A stretch of 30,316 bases of DNA from a virus. Made by a program: the position numbers and the translations under genes. Below the pieces are notes generated by a model, which saw only the letters and a list, made by a program, of their open reading frames with translations, did not search any database and was not told the origin of the DNA. Of this stretch, positions 370 to 29,539 are shown in pieces (the stretch's first letter is position 1; each line of letters begins with the position of its first letter). Location: the IMG/VR virus record IMGVR_UViG_3300018080_000446, positions 1 through 30,316 of that record, one strand, 5' to 3'.

Positions 370-3300
370 CTATGCTAAAGTGTCAATCCGCGCTTTCAAA
401 TCTTGCACAGCTTTGAGTAACGGTACAATCAGCCTACTGTACTCAACCGTTTCCGGTTGGTTTGTGTCATCGTCATAGCTCACCAGCATTTTTTGTATCT
501 CCGCCACCTCTTCAGCTATCAGCCCCCATGCATGGACATCGTCAACACGATAATCGAACTCGACCGGTCTCAATTCGTACAACCAATCAACCGTACTGAT
601 ATTTGAAATATTCTTCTTGTGGCGGATCGAACTGGAAACATACCCTATTTGACCAGTATTATCTATGTACAGATCTCTGTTCGTTCCGCCGACCGCATCG
701 CTGTAAACTGGCAACATAAATATTGCTCCATCACCCCTAACTTTGAATTGATTTACATTGCTGGTATTTCTCAGATCCAATATTGTGTCCGTTGAATTTG
801 TGCCAGCAACAAAAACCGCGCCGTAACTCTGGCTGGTCGTGGTGTCGCCGTAAAACACCATCGCCCAACTATTGGCATTTCCTATCGCGTCCACGTACAA
901 TGTCGCTGCACCAGGAGACGGGGCAGAATCACCAACTCCCAGGTGACCATCAATGACTGCATAGTCGGTTGTATCCTCTACCAACTTTAATATCTGGACA
1001 CCACCAGCATAGAACGACATTTGGTCGGCTGCGGAGCCAAAATCAATGTACGTGTTGGTATCCGCGATATCTACAATACGATTGCGTACAGCAATATAGT
1101 CTGTTGCGTCCTCGACCAATCGCAGTATCTCAACATTGCCACAGTAAAATGACAACTGATCCAATGTGCCAAAATCAATATATGTGTCATCTAGAAAACT
1201 TCCCTGCATAATTTTCCCATCATATATTGCCAGATCTTTTCCTGTTGGAACCGATGTATTGCCTGATAGCGTAATAGTCTCGCCGACGAAAACCGTTGCT
1301 CCTCCACCAGCATCCAATTCGATACCAGCATATCCAGTACCAGCCACATTGCTATATAGCATAATATCTGGCGTCTCTGCAGCACTGTCTCCCTCAACGC
1401 TAATAATTATTGCATCACGTTTTGCTGCATCCGCGTTCAGTTTTTCAATTTCCAATGTTTCATACGTCACACCTGAAAACGCATATACCTGAACGCTGTC
1501 TGCAGTGTCTGTTGTGTTATACCATCGCAGTTTATTAACATTACCAACCCCAAAATTTATTAATAACCCATCGCTATTTAATTTTACCTCCCCCCCACCT
1601 GCCGTTATTGTACCATCAGTGTCAATATAAGCCTCGACAACCGTCCCGTTTGTACCTCCGCGGAAATTCAACTTTCCTCCGCTCTGATCCCAAAATAAAT
1701 TTGCCTTGTCCGTGGCAACTTTGCCAAAAATTACATCCCCACCAGGCTGCCATTCCCCGACCACATCGGCCCCGGCATAGAATTTTATACCATCCGTTGC
1801 ATCAATGGTCACGTGTGACGTGCCGTACTTTCCAAGCCCCAGACCGTATGTGTCGCTCGAATACCCATACAACCCATTGAGATTCCCAATCGCCCAACAT
1901 TCTGTATAATCGTTGTACGTGGCCGAATCGCGCACATTACCTACAATCGTCGGTCCGGCGGTGCTACCCGCAACAATGCCAGAATCACTATACAAATCAA
2001 TAAAACCGTCACCAGCCGCGCCGGTATTAACAATTCCATCACCAGCATACCACGCATTGCGCCCCGTGCCGTCTTTGTCACGTACTACAGTATACGTATA
2101 TGGCCCAGCCCCACCCGCCGCCGAATCGACCTCCATCCATTCAAGTTTTCCGTTCGATTCCATCACAATCAGGTCGCCATCGGCTAAATTGTTATGCTCG
2201 ACCGTGATGGTTGTATCCCCGGCACCGTCGCCCAAGTCACTCGTTAGGTAGGTAGTTGGTGCGATGATAATCCGACCGCCAATCGTAGCCATTACATCGG
2301 CAGCAACTAATGTTTGTACCCACAGCTCTGCCGCGTGTAACGTAAGGTATTTCTTGCTGATGCTCCCCAAATTAATATCGTAATTTGTTGTAGGAAGAAC
2401 GTCATTTCCCGTTGGATTGAGTATCAAATCTCCGGCTGGCGCGAGTGTCAGGTTTCCCGCTGTTGTAGATATACTCTGCGCACCAACGAAAACTAAATCC
2501 CCGTCAATGCGTGCCTCCTGCGCTGTGGCCGCTGTACCAATTCCCAACCCAACTAACTGCAAATACCCGCTTGCATCGCTGGCAAGCAAACTGGCTGCCG
2601 CGCCCGGATTCGACGACGACGTGATAGTATGCAAATGGTCACTTCGCGCAAATGATGACGCGCTTCCCTCGGCATTTGTCGTTGATACGCTCAACGTCGT
2701 GGCCGCCGCACACGTTATTTCGTGCTGGTGATCGCTCCTGGCAAAATAATACGCCGTCCCCTCTTCTGCACTATCATCCGGTGAAATCGTTCCCGCAACA
2801 TCACACGTAATCTCGTGCGTGTGATCGCTCCGCGCAAACGACGACGCGCTACCCTCCGCCGCGCTGTCATCCGGCGAGATCGTCCCCGCCGCCGCGCACA
2901 CAATCGCGTGTTGATGGTCACTTCGCGCCGGGTTTGTGCTTGTCCCGGCAGCCGCAGCATCATCCGGCTCAATTGTGCCAATAGTTGGTGTACCCCAATT
3001 GAGTGCCAGCGCGCTTCCGCCACCACCAGTCAACCCGCTACCTGCCGCGCTCGCCGCAATCCTCAGATTCTCGGCCCCGTCATCCTCCAATCCCGTGCCA
3101 GCAAAATCGCTTACGTCCACGCCAATCGCGCCAGTGTAGAAATCAAGCCCCCCACTGGCCTGCAAATTCACTCGGATATTATTAGAACTCTCTGTCAGAC
3201 CATACGACGTATCAACAAAGTCAGTCACGTCTACGCCAACCGTGTACGTGCCCCCCGCGCCTGCATCCGTCTCGTCAAGACCGTCACCAACCGTAAACAC

Positions 3301-3468
3301 CCGTTCTGCAGATAAATCCGCGTGAACAGCCAATGTCAAATACTGCGCGTTATCCGGTGCAACACCAGATCCACTGAGCGACGATACACTAGCAACCGGC
3401 TGACCCAGCGCCAGAGTTTTCGCCCGCACTGCATCGGCAAGCGGCCCTTTTCTACCAAACTTTGCCAT
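370..3468 (-). CDS. Tail fibre/tail spike with C-terminal S74 intramolecular chaperone
   Basis: This 1032-aa protein is most likely the host-recognition fibre. The last 85 or so residues match the peptidase S74 autoprocessing chaperone: an SSIRHKKNI segment carries the Ser and Lys expected of the self-cleaving dyad, followed by the family's YELRPVEFDY, WGLIAEEVAE and VPLLKAVQDLKARI stretches, the last being the trimerising helix. In this family the chaperone drives trimer folding and then cuts itself off. Four ARSDHxHxI repeats spaced exactly 31 residues apart lie at residues 181-282. A duplicated TYIDFG/SFYxG module sits near residues 760-840. The start is an ATG sharing one base with the stop of the upstream gene (TAATG). 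Base composition is more AT-rich than in the head genes. Confidence 0.9.
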   Translation of the reverse strand: MAKFGRKGPLADAVRAKTLALGQPVASVSSLSGSGVAPDNAQYLTLAVHADLSAERVFTVGDGLDETDAGAGGTYTVGVDVTDFVDTSYGLTESSNNIRVNLQASGGLDFYTGAIGVDVSDFAGTGLEDDGAENLRIAASAAGSGLTGGGGSALALNWGTPTIGTIEPDDAAAAGTSTNPARSDHQHAIVCAAAGTISPDDSAAEGSASSFARSDHTHEITCDVAGTISPDDSAEEGTAYYFARSDHQHEITCAAATTLSVSTTNAEGSASSFARSDHLHTITSSSNPGAAASLLASDASGYLQLVGLGIGTAATAQEARIDGDLVFVGAQSISTTAGNLTLAPAGDLILNPTGNDVLPTTNYDINLGSISKKYLTLHAAELWVQTLVAADVMATIGGRIIIAPTTYLTSDLGDGAGDTTITVEHNNLADGDLIVMESNGKLEWMEVDSAAGGAGPYTYTVVRDKDGTGRNAWYAGDGIVNTGAAGDGFIDLYSDSGIVAGSTAGPTIVGNVRDSATYNDYTECWAIGNLNGLYGYSSDTYGLGLGKYGTSHVTIDATDGIKFYAGADVVGEWQPGGDVIFGKVATDKANLFWDQSGGKLNFRGGTNGTVVEAYIDTDGTITAGGGEVKLNSDGLLINFGVGNVNKLRWYNTTDTADSVQVYAFSGVTYETLEIEKLNADAAKRDAIIISVEGDSAAETPDIMLYSNVAGTGYAGIELDAGGGATVFVGETITLSGNTSVPTGKDLAIYDGKIMQGSFLDDTYIDFGTLDQLSFYCGNVEILRLVEDATDYIAVRNRIVDIADTNTYIDFGSAADQMSFYAGGVQILKLVEDTTDYAVIDGHLGVGDSAPSPGAATLYVDAIGNANSWAMVFYGDTTTSQSYGAVFVAGTNSTDTILDLRNTSNVNQFKVRGDGAIFMLPVYSDAVGGTNRDLYIDNTGQIGYVSSSIRHKKNISNISTVDWLYELRPVEFDYRVDDVHAWGLIAEEVAEIQKMLVSYDDDTNQPETVEYSRLIVPLLKAVQDLKARIDTLA
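961..1187 (-). repeat. Duplicated fibre module (TYIDFG...SFYxG...LVEDxTDY)
   Basis: Two successive segments of the fibre gene, about 961-1060 and 1095-1187, encode the same roughly 33-residue unit. The shared pattern is TYIDFG, then DQxSFYxG, then VxIL(K/R)LVED(A/T)TDY. The DNA copies have diverged but remain clearly related. Tandem beta modules of this kind are typical of trimeric fibre shafts. Confidence 0.75.
2614..2991 (-). repeat. Four 93-bp repeats encoding HxH motifs in the tail fibre
   Basis: The repeats encode ARSDHQHAI, ARSDHTHEI, ARSDHQHEI and ARSDHLHTI, with the first His at residues 185, 216, 247 and 278: a strict 31-residue period. Between them run PDDSA and EGxAxxFARSD segments. 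HxH motifs in trimeric phage fibres such as T4 gp37 coordinate metal ions along the trimer axis. The same role here is inference from the motif and its spacing. Confidence 0.8.
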
Positions 3469-13108: not shown

Positions 13109-14251
13109 CTAACTGTTATTGCTCTCGCTCAACTCGACCCACTCGCTGTCCACATAGATCAGCGTGATGCAATCGTATTGATTGAGCACCTGAGCATTAC
13201 CATCGTTTGTGCGGATATTGCTATCGGCGATTGTAATATCGTTGGCATCGTCACCGCACAGAATGAGCAACTGGCCCTCCGTTCCAGTAGCTGCCAGCGT
13301 CACCGTCACCGCGCCAGCCGAATCCAGATTATAGAACGTCTTGGTGGGTGTCAGTGTCTCTCCATCCGTGATCGTCTCATCCGCATAAGACGGGAAAAAT
13401 GTGCTGCTAACCGTCAACTCATCGTCGATAGTCACGCCAGCGTCTGCCGTCTCCTCGCTGATATTATTCGCCTCGATCGTTGAACCCGACAACGCACTAA
13501 ACGTATTAGCCGTAAACTGGAAATCGTCCGCGCCGCTGATCTCGATATCAATCTGGTCATCCGTGTCGGCTGTAATACTGGTATCGTTATCTGCATCCAG
13601 ATCAACCATATTACCAGCTACATCGAACCCGATGTCCCATCCGGTGCCACCCAGTGCGATCGCCGTCTCTGTGTTCTGCGCGTCCTGGCTGATGTTATCA
13701 ATCAAAATACCATACACACTATTTGTACCGGCCGTCGAATCGCCGATCCCCAAGTCGATATTGAACGCCGCCAGGCTGTTCGTGCCAGCCGTCATCACAT
13801 TGGTGGAATCTGCGATCTCGAACAGATGCTTTGTTGTGTCTGTCGTGATCGTAGACGCCCCCCAATCCTTCCACGTCTGGATATCAGCGCCACCGATCTC
13901 CACGTCCACCTGATCGTCCGTGTCCGCCGTCAGGCTCGTGTCCGCGTCCGCGTCCAAGTCCAGCTTTTGACCGTTCAGATCCACCGTCCCGGACCAGGTG
14001 ACCCCGGCCAGCGTCGCCGCGCCATCCACGTTCAACGTGCTGTCGAAATCAGCCGCCCCCACCACGTTGAGAGCGCCATCATCGTCAACAGTCAACTGTG
14101 TCGTACCGGATCCATCCTCCAGCTTGAAAATGTACCCGCTGGCACTCATCTCCTGATACTCGACCGGCTGCCCGCGCAGCCCGGCGAACCCACCGAGCAG
14201 CAGCGCCAACACCAGCGCCGCCCCGATTACAACCTTCTCAGCCTTACTCAT
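13109..14251 (-). CDS. Membrane-anchored or secreted beta-repeat fibre protein
   Basis: This 380-aa protein has an N-terminal signal-anchor (KVVIGAALVLALLLGGFAG, about residues 6-24) after a short basic start and is otherwise beta-repeat. A 27-residue unit recurs at residues 97-123 and 216-242; the shared core is DADxDTS(L/I)TADTDDQ(V/I)D followed by (V/I)EI(G/S)GAD. A TANTFSALSGSTIEANNI stretch resembles phage fibre shafts. The last 90 or so residues form a compact head (TPTKTFYNLDSAGAVTVTL...). A signal-anchor is unusual for a virion protein; it could be a surface protein expressed in the lysogen or a capsid fibre with a hydrophobic base. It overlaps the protease-like gene upstream by 8 nt, so the two are probably made together. 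Confidence 0.75.
   Translation of the reverse strand: MSKAEKVVIGAALVLALLLGGFAGLRGQPVEYQEMSASGYIFKLEDGSGTTQLTVDDDGALNVVGAADFDSTLNVDGAATLAGVTWSGTVDLNGQKLDLDADADTSLTADTDDQVDVEIGGADIQTWKDWGASTITTDTTKHLFEIADSTNVMTAGTNSLAAFNIDLGIGDSTAGTNSVYGILIDNISQDAQNTETAIALGGTGWDIGFDVAGNMVDLDADNDTSITADTDDQIDIEISGADDFQFTANTFSALSGSTIEANNISEETADAGVTIDDELTVSSTFFPSYADETITDGETLTPTKTFYNLDSAGAVTVTLAATGTEGQLLILCGDDANDITIADSNIRTNDGNAQVLNQYDCITLIYVDSEWVELSESNNS
13526..13963 (-). repeat. Two-copy 27-residue beta repeat in the fibre gene
   Basis: The copies at 13883-13963 and 13526-13606 encode nearly identical DAD(A/N)DTS(L/I)TADTDDQ units separated by about 92 residues. The Asp/Thr-rich alternation suits a calcium-binding or parallel beta-helix fibre shaft. 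Confidence 0.7.
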
Positions 14252-14816
14252 CGTTTTTCCCTCCTATGGTCTCTCGACCCATAATTTTGAACTCTAATGC
14301 ATCACTATCCGACCTGCGCCAGATCGAGGCCATCAACCGCGCCTTGGCCCCCATCAACGCCACCTTGACAGATAGTCCTACCGCCAGCCCGGCGATCACC
14401 CACCGCGCCAGTAGGTCCGTGCCCACCACGCGATCACCCAACGCCAGGTTTTTACCCGGACCGGCGATCACCGCGCTCGCCCCTGCATCGTACAGCGCCT
14501 GCACCATCGGGTCATCATTTGCGCCATAACAATTCGCAACGATCACCACCGCCCCGCCCAGGTTCACATCGCGCAACTGGCCTAGTCCCAGCGCCAGCAT
14601 TTGCGTTTTCCCGAACCCCAGGGGGCCGGTGCCCTCACCGAACCATCCCGCCTGGCCATCCATCCCGTGCAGCCGGAAATAGATCACGTCTCGCCCCTCC
14701 AGCCACTCGGGGTCGAAGGTGCTGGCCGTCAGCGGTGGAGAAGTGACCGGCTCGACGCCCGTCGCCTTCCCCACCGCCGCCTTGGCCAGCTCGGTGCAAT
14801 AGGCAAACACCCGCAC
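14244..14816 (-). CDS. CHAT/caspase-like (clan CD) cysteine protease
   Basis: This 190-aa protein shows the clan CD dyad pattern. A hydrophobic strand ends in HG (VIYFRLHG, His50-Gly51), and a second strand ends in the nucleophile (VVIVANCYG, Cys96). After it come the features of CHAT domains: a helix, then AGASAVIAGPG, then a long helix-rich stretch (TDLLARWVIAGLAVGLSVKV) ending MGAKARL. The segment may also span a membrane. The GTG start has an AGGAGG site 6 nt upstream. It lies directly after the major capsid gene and overlaps the fibre gene by 8 nt. CHAT and caspase-like proteases act in bacterial immunity and cell suicide and in protein processing. A role in virion maturation or in lysogen defence are both possible. 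Family assignment is by motif only. Confidence 0.7.
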   Translation of the reverse strand: MRVFAYCTELAKAAVGKATGVEPVTSPPLTASTFDPEWLEGRDVIYFRLHGMDGQAGWFGEGTGPLGFGKTQMLALGLGQLRDVNLGGAVVIVANCYGANDDPMVQALYDAGASAVIAGPGKNLALGDRVVGTDLLARWVIAGLAVGLSVKVALMGAKARLMASIWRRSDSDALEFKIMGRETIGGKNDE

Positions 14817-14849
14817 GATACACCTCCTCAGAATTGCGAATAGCGATTC

Positions 14850-15743
14850 TTAGGTGTTCCCTTGTTTCACCAGACGCCAGTCTCCATAGTACATCTCGTA
14901 CCGGGCAAAGAACTTGAAATAGTGCCTGCCGCCGTCTGGCATCTGCGGATCGAACCACGCATCCTGCAAGCTCGGCTCCTTGCGCATCGCCACGATGATG
15001 GGCTTGATCGGCTCGCTGGACGCCACGATGTGCCACGCGGTCGAGTCATAGTATGGCGTCACCACCATATCAAAATTGGTGTATGGGTTGATCTCGTCGT
15101 TCGCGCTGTCGTATGCCAGCGGGTTGCCGACGATGTTGGCCGCGATCCGGCGCAGAGAGGGCGAGCACACCAGGAGATCATAGTCATAGTCAGTGTACTC
15201 CCCCTGGTCGTCCACGAATGCCTGGGCCGCGATCAGCATCGTCTCGAAATTGTCCAGACTGAGGGCAGCACCACCCTCGTTATCCTGCGCGGTCTGGTAG
15301 TGGGCACCCGGATCTACGTGATCACTGTCGAAAAAATCCTGCCCGTCGTAGCACGCGCCGTATGTTTGACTATCACCGGCATTCAGCACCTCGAACACGC
15401 GCTTGTTGATGTGGCGTTGAAAGTTTCGGCCCGCGCCGCGCACCTTCTGCTCCAGAGCACCCGTCTGATCGTCGTCAATCGCGTTTTGGCTGATCCAGAC
15501 GATGATCTCCCAGTCCGACGGTGTGACGGTCAGGCTCTTCTCGATGTAATCCTGGATCTCGCGCCCGGTCTTGCTCTCGACCGGCATCGGAGCCGCGCCA
15601 AGATCGACCAGATCGTGACTCTTGGCCGTCATATTGAACGTCATCGCCACCCGCTGCCACGGCATTGGGCTTTCCCGCAACGCGGTCAGAAACCCGGTCC
15701 GTGCACCTACCACTAAATGTTGTGGGACATTCCCTGAAATCAT
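14850..15743 (-). CDS. Major capsid protein (Mu gpT-like)
   Basis: This 297-aa protein resembles the Mu gpT group of HK97-fold capsid proteins in length and order: an N-terminal arm (MISGNVPQHLVVGARTGFLT), an early region SLTVTPSDWEIIVWISQNAI, then LEQKVRGAGRNFQRHINKRV, a characteristic YDGQDFFDSDHVDPG loop, and LLVCSPSLRRIAANIVGNPL, ending RYEMYYGDWRLV. A strong AGGAGG site precedes the ATG. The gene follows a Mu gpI-like protease/scaffold and a decoration-like gene, matching the Mu I-Z-T order. It would form the icosahedral shell. Confidence 0.85.
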   Translation of the reverse strand: MISGNVPQHLVVGARTGFLTALRESPMPWQRVAMTFNMTAKSHDLVDLGAAPMPVESKTGREIQDYIEKSLTVTPSDWEIIVWISQNAIDDDQTGALEQKVRGAGRNFQRHINKRVFEVLNAGDSQTYGACYDGQDFFDSDHVDPGAHYQTAQDNEGGAALSLDNFETMLIAAQAFVDDQGEYTDYDYDLLVCSPSLRRIAANIVGNPLAYDSANDEINPYTNFDMVVTPYYDSTAWHIVASSEPIKPIIVAMRKEPSLQDAWFDPQMPDGGRHYFKFFARYEMYYGDWRLVKQGNT

Positions 15744-16243: not shown

Positions 16244-16717
16244 TTACTTTTCCTCCTCAAATTCGGACAGATCGTACTCGTCCGCCTTGCCCAGAATGTC
16301 CTCGTTCAACTCGAAGAACTCGGCCACGTTCTGGCCCCGTTGCTTCCAGGCCCGCAACTGGGTTGCATAGGGCCCTTCCAGCTTCTTCTTATCGTTCCCG
16401 GCCCCGGTAGACCCACGTTCTCCGAACTCGACCACCTTCGCCTTGAGCAACTGCTTGACCGCAGCGGTATGCTCGTCCGGCAGTGCATCGAGCACATCAA
16501 CCACGTCGTCAGGCTTGGCGCTCAACCCGGCACCGCACACCTCAGCCGCGAACTCGACGAGGCCCTGACGCCGCTCGTACTTGGCAGCCAGTTCCGCCTC
16601 GACCTCGGCCCGCGCCTCGTCCTTCAACTCGGCCCGTGTCACCTTTTGCTCGGCCATCTCTGCCTCCACTTCCTCGCGGATCCTGGCCCGCAGTTCGGCC
16701 TTTTCTTTTTCGTCCAT
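16244..16717 (-). CDS. Nested scaffold protein from an internal start
   Basis: An ATG at 16715-16717, in the frame of the protease gene, is preceded by AAAAGGAG and 6 nt. The 157-aa product begins MDEKEKAELRARIREEVEAE, a highly charged coiled coil, and ends acidic (YDLSEFEEEK). Lambda Nu3 and Mu gpZ are made this way, as the C-terminal parts of their protease genes. The product would assemble inside the procapsid and be removed by the protease. That it is actually made is inference from the ribosome site and these precedents. Confidence 0.6.
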   Translation of the reverse strand: MDEKEKAELRARIREEVEAEMAEQKVTRAELKDEARAEVEAELAAKYERRQGLVEFAAEVCGAGLSAKPDDVVDVLDALPDEHTAAVKQLLKAKVVEFGERGSTGAGNDKKKLEGPYATQLRAWKQRGQNVAEFFELNEDILGKADEYDLSEFEEEK

Positions 16718-17293
16718 CACATTCTCCTTTTCTAAATCTTGACATTCTTCCAATTCATCATCCTTTGTATCCGTGTTTTCGCGTTCCCTTTCTTCAGAAT
16801 CTCCCTCCTCCCCGCCGCTGAACGCAGCCGTCACAGCCGCCAACACCCGCTCCAACAGTCCACTGATCTCCATCGTGTACACCCCCTCGCTCAACTCAAC
16901 AGGCTGTAATCCCTTCACAGCCGGGAAATTCACCAGGCTCACACTCTTGATCACCTGCCGCGCCACGTCTATCGTCGCGCTCACGTACCGGTACACCCGG
17001 TCACCCACCAACATCTTGCCCATCTCGTTCCAGTCCGGCACCATCACCAACCGGTCACCGGCCCGTGATAATGACTTGATCCACCCCGCCGCCTCTGCCC
17101 GCTCGTGATCCACGTCGATGGGTACCTCCTGCCCTGCTGCCCCGTCATCGAAATTGACCACAAATGCGTCCAGATCATCACTCGTAATGTCTACCGCCTG
17201 CCCGTTCAAATCCGTGAACGACCCAACCCGCAGCACCTCGACCGGCTGCCCCTCTGCCAGCTCGCCAAACAAAAAATCTACCATCTCACCCAT
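16244..17293 (-). CDS. Head maturation protease (Mu gpI-like) with nested scaffold
   Basis: I start the gene at ATG 17291-17293 (MGEMVDFLFGEL), which has GGAGG 4 nt upstream; the reading that extends to 17545 runs inside the gp10-like gene in another frame. It gives 349 aa. Residues of about 1-145 look like the Mu gpI protease: VPIDVDHERAEAAGWIKSL, RLVMVPDWNEMGK, YRYVSATI, then VSLVNFPAVKGL. An acidic linker (GGEEGDSEERERENTDTKDD) follows. The C-terminal about 157 residues are coiled coil (MDEKEKAELRARIREEVEAE) and would be the scaffold. An internal ATG at 16715-16717 has an excellent AAGGAG site, so a free scaffold (gpZ- or Nu3-like) is probably made from within the gene. Confidence 0.8.
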   Translation of the reverse strand: MGEMVDFLFGELAEGQPVEVLRVGSFTDLNGQAVDITSDDLDAFVVNFDDGAAGQEVPIDVDHERAEAAGWIKSLSRAGDRLVMVPDWNEMGKMLVGDRVYRYVSATIDVARQVIKSVSLVNFPAVKGLQPVELSEGVYTMEISGLLERVLAAVTAAFSGGEEGDSEERERENTDTKDDELEECQDLEKENVMDEKEKAELRARIREEVEAEMAEQKVTRAELKDEARAEVEAELAAKYERRQGLVEFAAEVCGAGLSAKPDDVVDVLDALPDEHTAAVKQLLKAKVVEFGERGSTGAGNDKKKLEGPYATQLRAWKQRGQNVAEFFELNEDILGKADEYDLSEFEEEK

Positions 17294-17304
17294 AATCCCT
17301 CCGG

Positions 17305-17748
17305 TCACCTTGCCGCCGCCGCGATCCGCGCCAATATCGCGTCCACCGCCTCGCTCACCAATGCGTCCACATCCCCCACGCTGTCCCGGATCACGTCCTC
17401 CGTCGTCTGCCACCGGCCCCGGTGCATATACGCTTGCTCGGCCGGTGATTGTACAAATGGCCCGTATGGCGTCGCGTTCGAGATCGTTCCCTCGACAGAC
17501 GCCCCTCCGCCCCCAAAGTTCACCACTGGCCTGCCGCCGCGCCACAACCGCCCCAGCGTGCCCATCCGCCTATACGTGCTCCCCCCTGGAGGAGACGGAT
17601 ACACCGCCGCCCGTCCCGCCAATAGCAGCAGCGCCTGGCGCATCTTTCCGCCGATCTCCTGCCGCGCAAACTCGCCATACCTGGCCAGCGCCGCGCTCAA
17701 TCGCCGTGCATCGTCCGAAAACTCCTCCAACCCACTCGGATCAAGCAT
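17305..17748 (-). CDS. HK97 gp10-like / virion morphogenesis protein
   Basis: This 147-aa protein has an N-terminal helix pair (LEEFSDDARRLSAALARYGE) and a core with a loop GGSTYRRMGTLGRLWRGG. The segment NATPYGPFVQSPAEQAYMHR is typical of gp10-family and Mu virion-morphogenesis proteins, which help join tail to head. A C-terminal Ala-rich helix follows. It overlaps the portal gene by 8 nt. Its place between portal and protease differs from HK97 order but matches Mu-like maps, where gpG-type morphogenesis proteins follow the portal and MuF genes. The exact role (connector or assembly factor) is uncertain. Confidence 0.7.
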   Translation of the reverse strand: MLDPSGLEEFSDDARRLSAALARYGEFARQEIGGKMRQALLLLAGRAAVYPSPPGGSTYRRMGTLGRLWRGGRPVVNFGGGGASVEGTISNATPYGPFVQSPAEQAYMHRGRWQTTEDVIRDSVGDVDALVSEAVDAILARIAAAAR

Positions 17749-26324: not shown

Positions 26325-27176
26325 TTACGTCCAGCACGGCCCATCACCACACAAAAGTGGTATCTGTACAGCATTATTTACTCTCTCCCTCTTTGCGTCA
26401 TCCTCAAGATTCGCTGCGCTCAATGCACCACCGTGTTTATAAATAAAAATCTGATCTGACGTGCTACCGTCACCCGCAAGTGGATTATGCCTATTGGCAT
26501 CGTCAAAACGTACCGCCTCTTTCCATTCGTCTGGAGATTCGCTACACATCTGTAGCCATTCTGATGCTGGGCGGTAAGGACAGCAGATACAAGCAGATTT
26601 GCTCGGAACTGGCAAGCCGAAAGATTGCAGATAGTCTATACAATCCTGGCGCGTCATTTTATGCTCTAACAAAGGAAACCTCTTGACGATAAATTTAACG
26701 CGACTGGGTTTCATTCTTGTGAACTCTTCCAGTGTGAAGCCGTAGGATTGTTCAACGCTGCCAGGCCGAGGGTGCGGCGCTTTTGATTTGTGAAATCCTA
26801 GTAATTCGCGTATCCTTCGCTTCGATGGATCAACTTTAAAATGTCGCGTACACTGACGCTTCAAAGGGCCACCAGTGGAACTCCAAAACGGAATATGTAT
26901 ATGATCTGCGGCACCGTCCTCTCGAATGTCGCCGCCGCTCACAATCTCAACACGCATACCGTGCTCACGAAAATAGTTAGTGTACCAATCGCGTATCTCT
27001 CTCGTGTGGTATCGTTCAAAGTTTGTGTCTGAATGAATGATAGCATCGAATGGCTCTATCAATCCCATAACGCTCATCACGCCAACTGTTGTTGATGGCG
27101 CTCCACATCCCCACGCTAACACGCGGTATACTTCTCCGTTCATCGCGCTCCACGTTATTCCTTCCACAATCAACAT
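26325..27176 (-). CDS. PAPS-reductase-like ATP-pyrophosphatase (phage family)
   Basis: This 283-aa protein belongs to the adenine nucleotide alpha-hydrolase group. The PP-loop is AWGCGAPSTTVGVM (about residues 21-34), a variant of the SGGxxS loop. It is followed by AIIHSDTNFERYHT, and RQCTRHFKVDPSKRRIRELL (108-127). The segment RMKPSRVKFIVKRFPLLEHK (154-173), DCIDYLQSFGLPVPSKSACI and CCPYRPASEWL form the Cys-rich end of the phage 'PAPS reductase/FAD synthetase-like' proteins. Such enzymes activate a substrate with ATP and often move sulphur. Roles in nucleic acid modification are suspected, and the phage substrate is unknown. ATG 27176 has a weak site; an ATG at codon 12 (27143) with GGAG upstream may be the true start. 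Confidence 0.85.
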   Translation of the reverse strand: MLIVEGITWSAMNGEVYRVLAWGCGAPSTTVGVMSVMGLIEPFDAIIHSDTNFERYHTREIRDWYTNYFREHGMRVEIVSGGDIREDGAADHIHIPFWSSTGGPLKRQCTRHFKVDPSKRRIRELLGFHKSKAPHPRPGSVEQSYGFTLEEFTRMKPSRVKFIVKRFPLLEHKMTRQDCIDYLQSFGLPVPSKSACICCPYRPASEWLQMCSESPDEWKEAVRFDDANRHNPLAGDGSTSDQIFIYKHGGALSAANLEDDAKRERVNNAVQIPLLCGDGPCWT

Positions 27177-28609: not shown

Positions 28610-28809
28610 TACAATCCCCCTTGAGGCATCCTGCCCGCCCGGCTCGCTGCCTCCATCCGCATCCTGCGGTTCACCGTCTCTACCTCCACCAACTCCCGCC
28701 GCAGCCGCTCCACCTCACCCACCAACCAGATCACATCATCCATCCGTGCCCGCCCAGGATGCTCTCTGATCCGCCACAACCGCTTATCTCCTCTCAAATC
28801 GTTACACAT
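28609..28809 (-). CDS. Small coiled-coil protein in the partition operon
   Basis: This 66-aa protein begins MCNDLRGDKRLWRIREHPGR at an ATG inside the parA end (8-nt overlap) with GGGGGG upstream; the longer reading from 28842 overlaps parA more deeply and has no site. The middle is a coiled coil (IWLVGEVERLRRELVEVETV) and the end is basic and flexible (RMRMEAASRAGRMPQGGL). Lying between parA and the RHH gene, it may be an adaptor of the partition complex. I do not recognise it. Confidence 0.65.
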   Translation of the reverse strand: MCNDLRGDKRLWRIREHPGRARMDDVIWLVGEVERLRRELVEVETVNRRMRMEAASRAGRMPQGGL

Positions 28810-29539
28810 CCAACACCCCCCACACAACCCCGGCATACTCACCCGCCGCCCGGCTCTCTGGATCGTGCTCGAAAATCGTCAGTCCCATTGCCGGGCACTC
28901 CCGCAGCACCGCCGCCCGGTGGATCGGCTCCAACACACACTCCCCGAACGTCGCCCGCAGCGCCGCCAAATTCGCCGCGCTCTCCCGCGTTACCTCGTCA
29001 TAGAACGTCGGCAGGATCCGCACCAACGGAGGCCGAGGTCGCCGCAGCGCCTGCAACGTCGCCAACACCTCCCGCACCCCCTCCAGACTCAAATGATCCA
29101 CCGCAGAGGGCACGATCAACACATCACAACACCACAGCGCGTTCTCCTGCAACCCGCCCGCGCTGGGAGCCGTGTCCATCACCAGATAATTCAGCCCCCC
29201 GTTGATCCGCTCACCGAGCAGCTCCCCCAACGTCCGGCAGCCCAACCCCTCCACCACCATCAACGTCTCCGCCGTCCGCGTACGCTTGCTCCCCGGCAGC
29301 AACCACAACTCGTCACGCCCCGTCATCCGCACCACATCCCGCAGCGTCGGCCCATTCACCAGCAGATCGAAAACCCCGTCCCCCTGGCCGATCCCCAAAT
29401 GACTCGCACACTGCCCCTGTGGGTCCAGGTCCACCAACATCGTCGCGTAATTCTTCAACGCCAACCCGTGCGCCAGCGTCACCGCCGTCGTCGTCTTGGC
29501 CACCCCGCCCTTTTGATTCGCTACCGCAATCCTAATCAT
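28802..29539 (-). CDS. parA: ParA-type partition ATPase
   Basis: This 245-aa ATPase carries the deviant Walker A KGGVAKTTT at residues 10-18 (with Ala where Gly is more common), DLDPQGQ at 37-43 and Walker B YLVMDTAPS at 118-126, then IVPSAVDHLSLEGV. It lacks an N-terminal DNA-binding domain, so it belongs to the short (type Ib) or bacterial Soj-like group. It would move DNA along the nucleoid together with the RHH protein and the iterons. A GGGGGATG segment near the ATG and the upstream gene's stop 1 nt before it suggest coupling. A partition cassette in a phage suggests extrachromosomal lysogeny, although chromosomal prophages can also carry parA. Confidence 0.9.
   Translation of the reverse strand: MIRIAVANQKGGVAKTTTAVTLAHGLALKNYATMLVDLDPQGQCASHLGIGQGDGVFDLLVNGPTLRDVVRMTGRDELWLLPGSKRTRTAETLMVVEGLGCRTLGELLGERINGGLNYLVMDTAPSAGGLQENALWCCDVLIVPSAVDHLSLEGVREVLATLQALRRPRPPLVRILPTFYDEVTRESAANLAALRATFGECVLEPIHRAAVLRECPAMGLTIFEHDPESRAAGEYAGVVWGVLDV

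Follow-up and report, generated by a model that had tools for sequence, protein, structure and literature searches.

What a caspase-like protease may do among the head genes of a tailed phage, and which protein it may act on, are the questions raised by one small gene of the window, that is, of the whole stretch of DNA analysed, a virus contig of 30,316 bases from an uncultured bacterial virus. The gene lies between the major capsid gene and a membrane-anchored ORF, as an earlier note had claimed, and its stop overlaps the start of the latter (ORF 13109-14251) by 8 bases. The head part of the locus contains the following features:

14244..14816, minus strand: CDS of the putative caspase-like (clan CD, CHAT-like fold) cysteine protease, 190 aa, GTG start
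14821..14828, minus strand: Shine-Dalgarno sequence AGGAGGTG of the protease gene, read from the sequence
14850..15743, minus strand: major capsid protein, Mu gpT-like (PF10124, E=1.6e-28; phrog_371, E=2.4e-33)
16244..17545, minus strand: Mu I-like head maturation protease/scaffold ORF (PF10123, E=8.1e-14; phrog_976, E=4.8e-26), start codon uncertain

The Shine-Dalgarno sequence is strong, with its AGGAGG core six bases 5' of the GTG start, and the protease gene follows the capsid gene after 33 bases; the order of the genes upstream is terminase, portal, Mu I-like protease, cement-like protein and capsid. The PF10123 match belongs to ORF 16244-17545 and not to the caspase-like ORF 14244-14816, in agreement with the earlier supposition that the phage has a separate gpI-like maturation protease. 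Peptidase_S74 is a self-cleaving domain, and it is present as a C-terminal intramolecular chaperone (E 3.8e-6) in a large tail protein (370-3468), so that the window phage has three kinds of protease-like domain. Elsewhere in the window there are a phosphoadenosine phosphosulfate reductase-like gene (26325-27176; phrog_424, E 1.6e-22), possibly an auxiliary metabolic gene, and a gene for a ParA-like partition protein (28802-29539; phrog_164, E 1.1e-42).

The caspase-like fold proposed for this protein was recovered by structure prediction: the AlphaFold2 model built from 28 homologs (pLDDT 90.5, pTM 0.88) has the caspase (clan CD) fold, and clan CD proteins account for 50 of the 50 structural matches listed (Z 8.3-14.3). 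The VIA-align Z scores were 14.3 for DdvA, 13.2 for SAVED-CHAT and 12.2-12.3 for the TPR-CHAT protein Csx29/Craspase, all of them CHAT proteins; 14.2 for RgpB (rmsd 2.6 over 159), 12.2 for separase and 9.4 for Kgp among the other members of the clan; and, among the lower matches, 9.0 for C11, 9.0 for MALT1 and 8.8 for caspase-3. A model from four sequences was weak (pLDDT 63.5), with SAVED-CHAT and Csx29 first among its matches and these two and DdvA (Z 11.6-11.2) outranking unrelated flavodoxins (7.7). Gingipain and separase score about level with the CHAT proteins, and therefore the fold does not single out CHAT.

The sequence searches gave no such assignment. The Pfam CHAT profile PF12770 had no match in the window protein or in any of 20 family members (E<=10), and the CHAT family search of the window contig was negative, with one of 14 control genomes positive; the profiles of Peptidase C14 (PF00656) and Peptidase C25 (PF01364) did not match the protease either, the latter giving nothing in the control genomes as well. 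Nothing credible was found for the protease in Pfam, PHROGs, PADLOC, NCBIfam and PDB sequence searches, cultured phages searched by tblastn with the window protein and with the homolog from locus L021 gave no match, pattern-limited scans of bacterial and archaeal genome contigs revealed no relative, and among the BFVD viral structures there was no match at E<=0.001, an ascovirus caspase being named at E 0.63. The weak match to cellobiose dehydrogenase, the Abhydrolase_6 match of one member only (E 0.0011) and that to an oxidoreductase model (E 0.0057) were rejected as identities of the protease, being contradicted by the fold. Thus, of the suggested CHAT/caspase-like identity, the CHAT-type, clan CD fold stands and recognisable membership of PF12770 or C14 by sequence does not; the modelled protein is best described as a clan CD fold protein of its own family, CHAT-like but outside Pfam CHAT, and the naming stops at this level because no sequence profile credibly recognises it.

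Scans of viral contigs with protease queries yielded 30 protease-bearing loci including the window, a few of them near-duplicates, and identity to the window protein ranges from about 62% down to about 39% over 28 aligned homologs. Sixteen columns are invariant in the 28 aligned proteins, among them C7, H50, C96, N123 and D172. The residues of the putative catalytic dyad are encoded as follows:

14667..14669, minus strand: codon of the proposed catalytic His50, invariant in 28 homologs, at the end of strand 44-48
14529..14531, minus strand: codon of the proposed catalytic Cys96, invariant in 28 homologs, at the end of strand 90-93

The invariance of this pair at identities down to about 39% takes the pattern far beyond chance, and in the window protein His50 is the sole histidine and C7 and C96 are the sole cysteines. 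Neither of the results that would have refuted the earlier note, a fold unlike that of caspases or a missing His/Cys pair in homologs, was obtained. The dyad stands after the hydrophobic strands of the model just where it had been placed from the sequence, in keeping with the clan CD standard of a catalytic His and Cys directly after core strands (PMC4357240). A glycine adjoins the catalytic His in the clan (PMC4357240); however, of the His50-Gly51 pattern only the histidine is constant, since Gly51, present in the window protein and in 21 of the 28 homologs, is Arg or Ser in the other 7. The C-terminal AxxxAKARL stretch holds in part as well, A157 being invariant and A153, L154 and R160 nearly so, while its remaining positions vary. 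Cys7 (codon 14796-14798), at the end of strand 1, is likewise invariant in 28 of 28 homologs, and the first-helix region in clan CD contributes to S1 (PMC4357240). Taken together, the modelled fold and the dyad point to a putative stand-alone, minimal caspase-fold cysteine protease with His50 and Cys96 as its presumed catalytic residues.

The neighbour that the protease gene overlaps has the features of a candidate substrate:

13109..14251, minus strand: partner, the proposed substrate, 380 aa, with an N-terminal membrane anchor and a repetitive fibre-like ectodomain
14177..14233, minus strand: hydrophobic membrane anchor of the partner, about residues 7-25, preceded by a basic N-terminus
14144..14158, minus strand: juxtamembrane motif YQEMS, partner residues 32-36, with the proposed scissile bond Met35-Ser36

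The window's own partner ORF has no database match, but an N-terminally anchored, often fibre-like ORF abuts, overlaps or closely flanks the protease gene in each of the 28 loci that show the neighbour, the contigs L006 and L008 ending too early to show it. These 28 comprise 20 loci of the clade with Arg at protease residue 48, to which the window belongs (R48 clade), and 8 of a second clade with Asp at this place (D48 clade). The partner is downstream of the protease in most loci and upstream in L014, L018, L020, L021, L026-L028, L032, L057 and L058, and in several of the latter the linkage is kept although no relative of the window's capsid gene was detected in the vicinity. Loci of the window's capsid lineage largely keep the order of capsid gene, protease, anchored ORF and small ORF. 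The constant feature of the 28 loci is thus the protease together with a protein that has a single hydrophobic anchor behind a short basic N-terminus; in a few loci there is a lipobox (LAGC in L031, LIGC in L032). The ectodomains differ among the loci and some are fibre-like; the partner in L007 matches the tail-fibre PHROG phrog_30742 (E=1.1e-13), and the protein at its place in L017 matches the depolymerase C-terminal domain Phage_depo_C, PF25692 (E=5.4e-10). In some related phages, L068 and L073, the partner locus holds an unanchored repeat protein, in line with the idea of an ectodomain that functions free of its anchor. The protein of L073 (6904-7698, after the capsid gene) has many copies of ATVAELN(A/T)(L/M)DGI.

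The neck of the partner carries the sequence that ties it to the protease. The consensus in the R48 clade is [YIV]-Q-x-M-[S/G], starting 5-12 residues past the hydrophobic core, and QxM[SG] stands just outside the anchor in all 21 segments of this clade, whereas the motif arises in 0.4% of shuffled neck segments. Among the 24 ORFs of the window that were tested, the partner is the sole carrier of [YIV]Q.M[SG]. A scan of all ORFs of the collected loci for a Q.M[SG]-like sequence after a hydrophobic stretch recovered the partner in every R48-clade locus where it is visible, with almost nothing else, the extra being a multi-TM protein of L020 that is unrelated. In L011 (5434-6063) and L029 (9491-10066) a further anchored protein has a QxM[SG] neck and is possibly a second substrate.

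Protease-less relatives were gathered by scans of viral contigs with the capsid protein, and neither the Met motif nor the Arg motif of the D48 clade (see below) is present in their nine distinct anchored ORFs found soon after the capsid gene. Within the window's capsid lineage the motif occurs in 17 of 17 cases with the protease vs none of 9 without it (Fisher p=3e-7, not corrected for relatedness); the independent contrasts agree in direction in 3 of 3 cases, which alone gives p=0.25. On the capsid tree, supported branches hold at least 3 changes between presence and absence of the protease, and the best tree has 5; L042, which lacks both protease and motif, nests in a well-supported group with L012, L015 and L019, where both are present. 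The protease-less anchored proteins share another neck motif, roughly [KQR]-[AS]-[LI]-[AT]-G (SKALAGD, QQALAGD, EQALTGY), so the neck carries other conserved signals too; its A-x-A-G resembles a signal peptidase site, but far from the anchor. The carriers of this neck are:

L043, 6942-7670
L065, 4302-5027
L067, 3668-4618
L071, 2669-3331
L079, 6939-7660
L083, 2092-2527

The protease and the neck motif could travel together as one cassette, which would give co-occurrence without cleavage. However, a functional link is more likely, since the pair exists in two gene orders and is accompanied by a matching exchange at residue 48 of the protease:

14673..14675, minus strand: codon of Arg48, the clade-splitting residue two before the catalytic His, proposed to lie in the S1 pocket

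This residue is Arg in 22 and Asp in 6 of the 28 aligned homologs, and the D48 clade (L020, L021, L025-L028, L057, L058) has YFDLH for YFRLH. Its partners are without QxM[SG] and have in the same place [PA]-[VIE]-x-R-[small], found in 7 of 7 segments, the same seven sequences from which this Arg motif was defined: AVPR/A, AIAR/T, PVAR/N, PVER/T, PEAR/G, PVPR/S and PVAR/S, where the slash marks the proposed cut. Residue 48 (Arg or Asp) thus switches together with the neck site (Met or Arg). The catalytic histidine of the comparison protein TbMCA2 is His158. The residue two before the catalytic His of this protein, Ser156, is in the proposed S1 pocket, and the equivalent residue of MARTX-CPD, Gly89, is within contact distance of the P1 Leu (PMC4357240). 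By this analogy residue 48 is proposed to line the S1 pocket, where the acidic Asp48 would go well with an Arg at P1. In the window's own clade an Arg close to S1 does not obviously match a Met at P1, which counts against cleavage there; the charged positions that separate the clades are 48, 134 and 170, and our guess is that R48 is neutralised by D134 in the R48 clade.

The earlier note had left open whether the target would be a host or defence protein or the fibre, and the constant adjacency and the motif-protease co-occurrence point to the neighbouring membrane-anchored fibre. On balance it is judged likely that a dedicated caspase-fold protease cuts its anchored fibre-like neighbour at a four-residue neck site and so frees the ectodomain, a reading built on the predicted fold, the invariant dyad, the gene linkage and the co-occurrence of motif and protease. 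The partner would be held in the membrane by its N-terminal transmembrane helix or lipobox; the protease would recognise the four-residue site just outside the anchor and cut in a caspase-type manner after the fourth motif residue and before the small one, between M and [S/G] of [YIV]-Q-x-M-[S/G] in the window's clade (Met35-Ser36 of ORF 13109-14251) and between R and the small residue of [PA]-[VIE]-x-R-[small] in the second clade; and the cut would release the ectodomain from its anchor. The neck sequence is found only when the protease is present, and hence the enzyme probably cuts the fibre loose; the exact bond we infer from the motif, and the cut would most likely serve to mature or release a fibre, which would end up either free or on the virion. 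The weak point of such cleavage is topology. The basic N-termini and the lipoboxes (L031, L032) put the site at the external surface of the membrane, while the protease, with no evident signal peptide, should be cytoplasmic, and with these opposite predicted sides the two would come together only ahead of export or once the cell has lysed, or if the predicted insertion of the anchor is wrong.

The same protease and substrate would be kept if the partner were a cell-surface factor, for superinfection exclusion or receptor masking, that is shed at lysis. The basic N-terminus with its transmembrane segment and the lipoboxes in L031 and L032 do predict export and surface anchoring, and the protease would reach the site after lysis; but the location of the genes within the head module, adjoining the capsid gene, the unanchored repeat protein at the same position in L068 and L073, and the tail-fibre/depolymerase-type domains in some ectodomains (L007, L017) make such shedding rather unlikely, if worth reckoning with. 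Cleavage of a host or defence protein, with the gene position incidental, is improbable: CHAT proteases are known from immunity systems (PMC10028731), yet nothing here supports a role in defence, and it would be left unexplained why an anchored protein is always encoded next to the protease, on one side or the other, and why the motif is found or missing along with the protease. Very improbable is a sortase-like transpeptidase, which would cut at the neck motif and link the fibre to a further protein, for instance the capsid, as the gene beside the capsid gene, the site next to a membrane anchor with its resemblance to sorting-signal logic and the conserved small residue after the proposed cut might suggest, for the clan CD relatives among the matches listed are mostly hydrolases. 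That translation of an unanchored fibre isoform, unrelated to the protease, starts internally at the neck-motif Met is disfavoured and scarcely credible: the Met is invariant in the R48 clade and the relative L073 has an unanchored protein at this locus, but a Shine-Dalgarno core at working distance is absent in 17 of 22 cases and of four bases only in the others, while the N-terminal starts have cores of 4-6 bases in 21 of 22, the Gln codon of the motif varies (CAG 19, CAA 3), and the motif is absent where the protease is absent and replaced by the Arg site in the D48 clade.

Release of the fibre by the neighbouring protease, as preferred here, would make the two genes a pair that is present or absent as a whole, with a cleavage code that can be read and a predicted switch of specificity between two clades. 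It suggests, if true, that in some tailed phages a fibre-like protein is first handed to the host membrane and later severed from it, and such delivery and release lie outside standard virion assembly. The chances seem about even for the wider proposal, in which a hitherto undescribed caspase-fold family of tailed phages co-evolves with its four-residue neck site, cuts after Met in one clade and after Arg in the other through the Arg/Asp exchange, and frees membrane-anchored fibre-like proteins in a manner like that of a sorting signal. In the literature searched, caspase-fold proteases are described in cellular signalling, immunity, virulence and eukaryotic viruses, and no phage caspase-like enzyme for structural proteins was found.

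Several known systems are comparable in part. Bacterial gasdermin-protease pairs also have a caspase-like protease adjoining a membrane-acting substrate, as in the window pair; however, the window partner is N-terminally anchored and often fibre-like rather than a pore former, and the genes are phage structural neighbours. The Mu I type prohead proteases are likewise phage proteases in a head operon, and the window enzyme presumably processes a phage protein as they do, but they differ in fold and chemistry, and an enzyme of the Mu I type is encoded separately in the window (16244-17545). Gingipain R (C25) and separase (C50) are among the best structural matches, and their Arg specificity is comparable to the proposed site of the D48 clade, although they are large multidomain enzymes with no detectable sequence similarity to the window protease, and RgpB is secreted. 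The CHAT proteases Csx29, SAVED-CHAT and DdvA share the caspase fold with a His and a Cys after two core strands (Z 12-14), whereas the window protein, of 190 aa, has no TPR, SAVED or other sensor domain, no PF12770 match and no universal Gly after the His in its family, and is encoded in a phage head-gene module. Csx29 cuts its partner Csx30 once, at residues 427-429, and cleavage fails when Met427 is deleted (PMC10028731); in the same way, the window protease probably makes one specific cut, with a Met at the site, in a dedicated partner encoded nearby.
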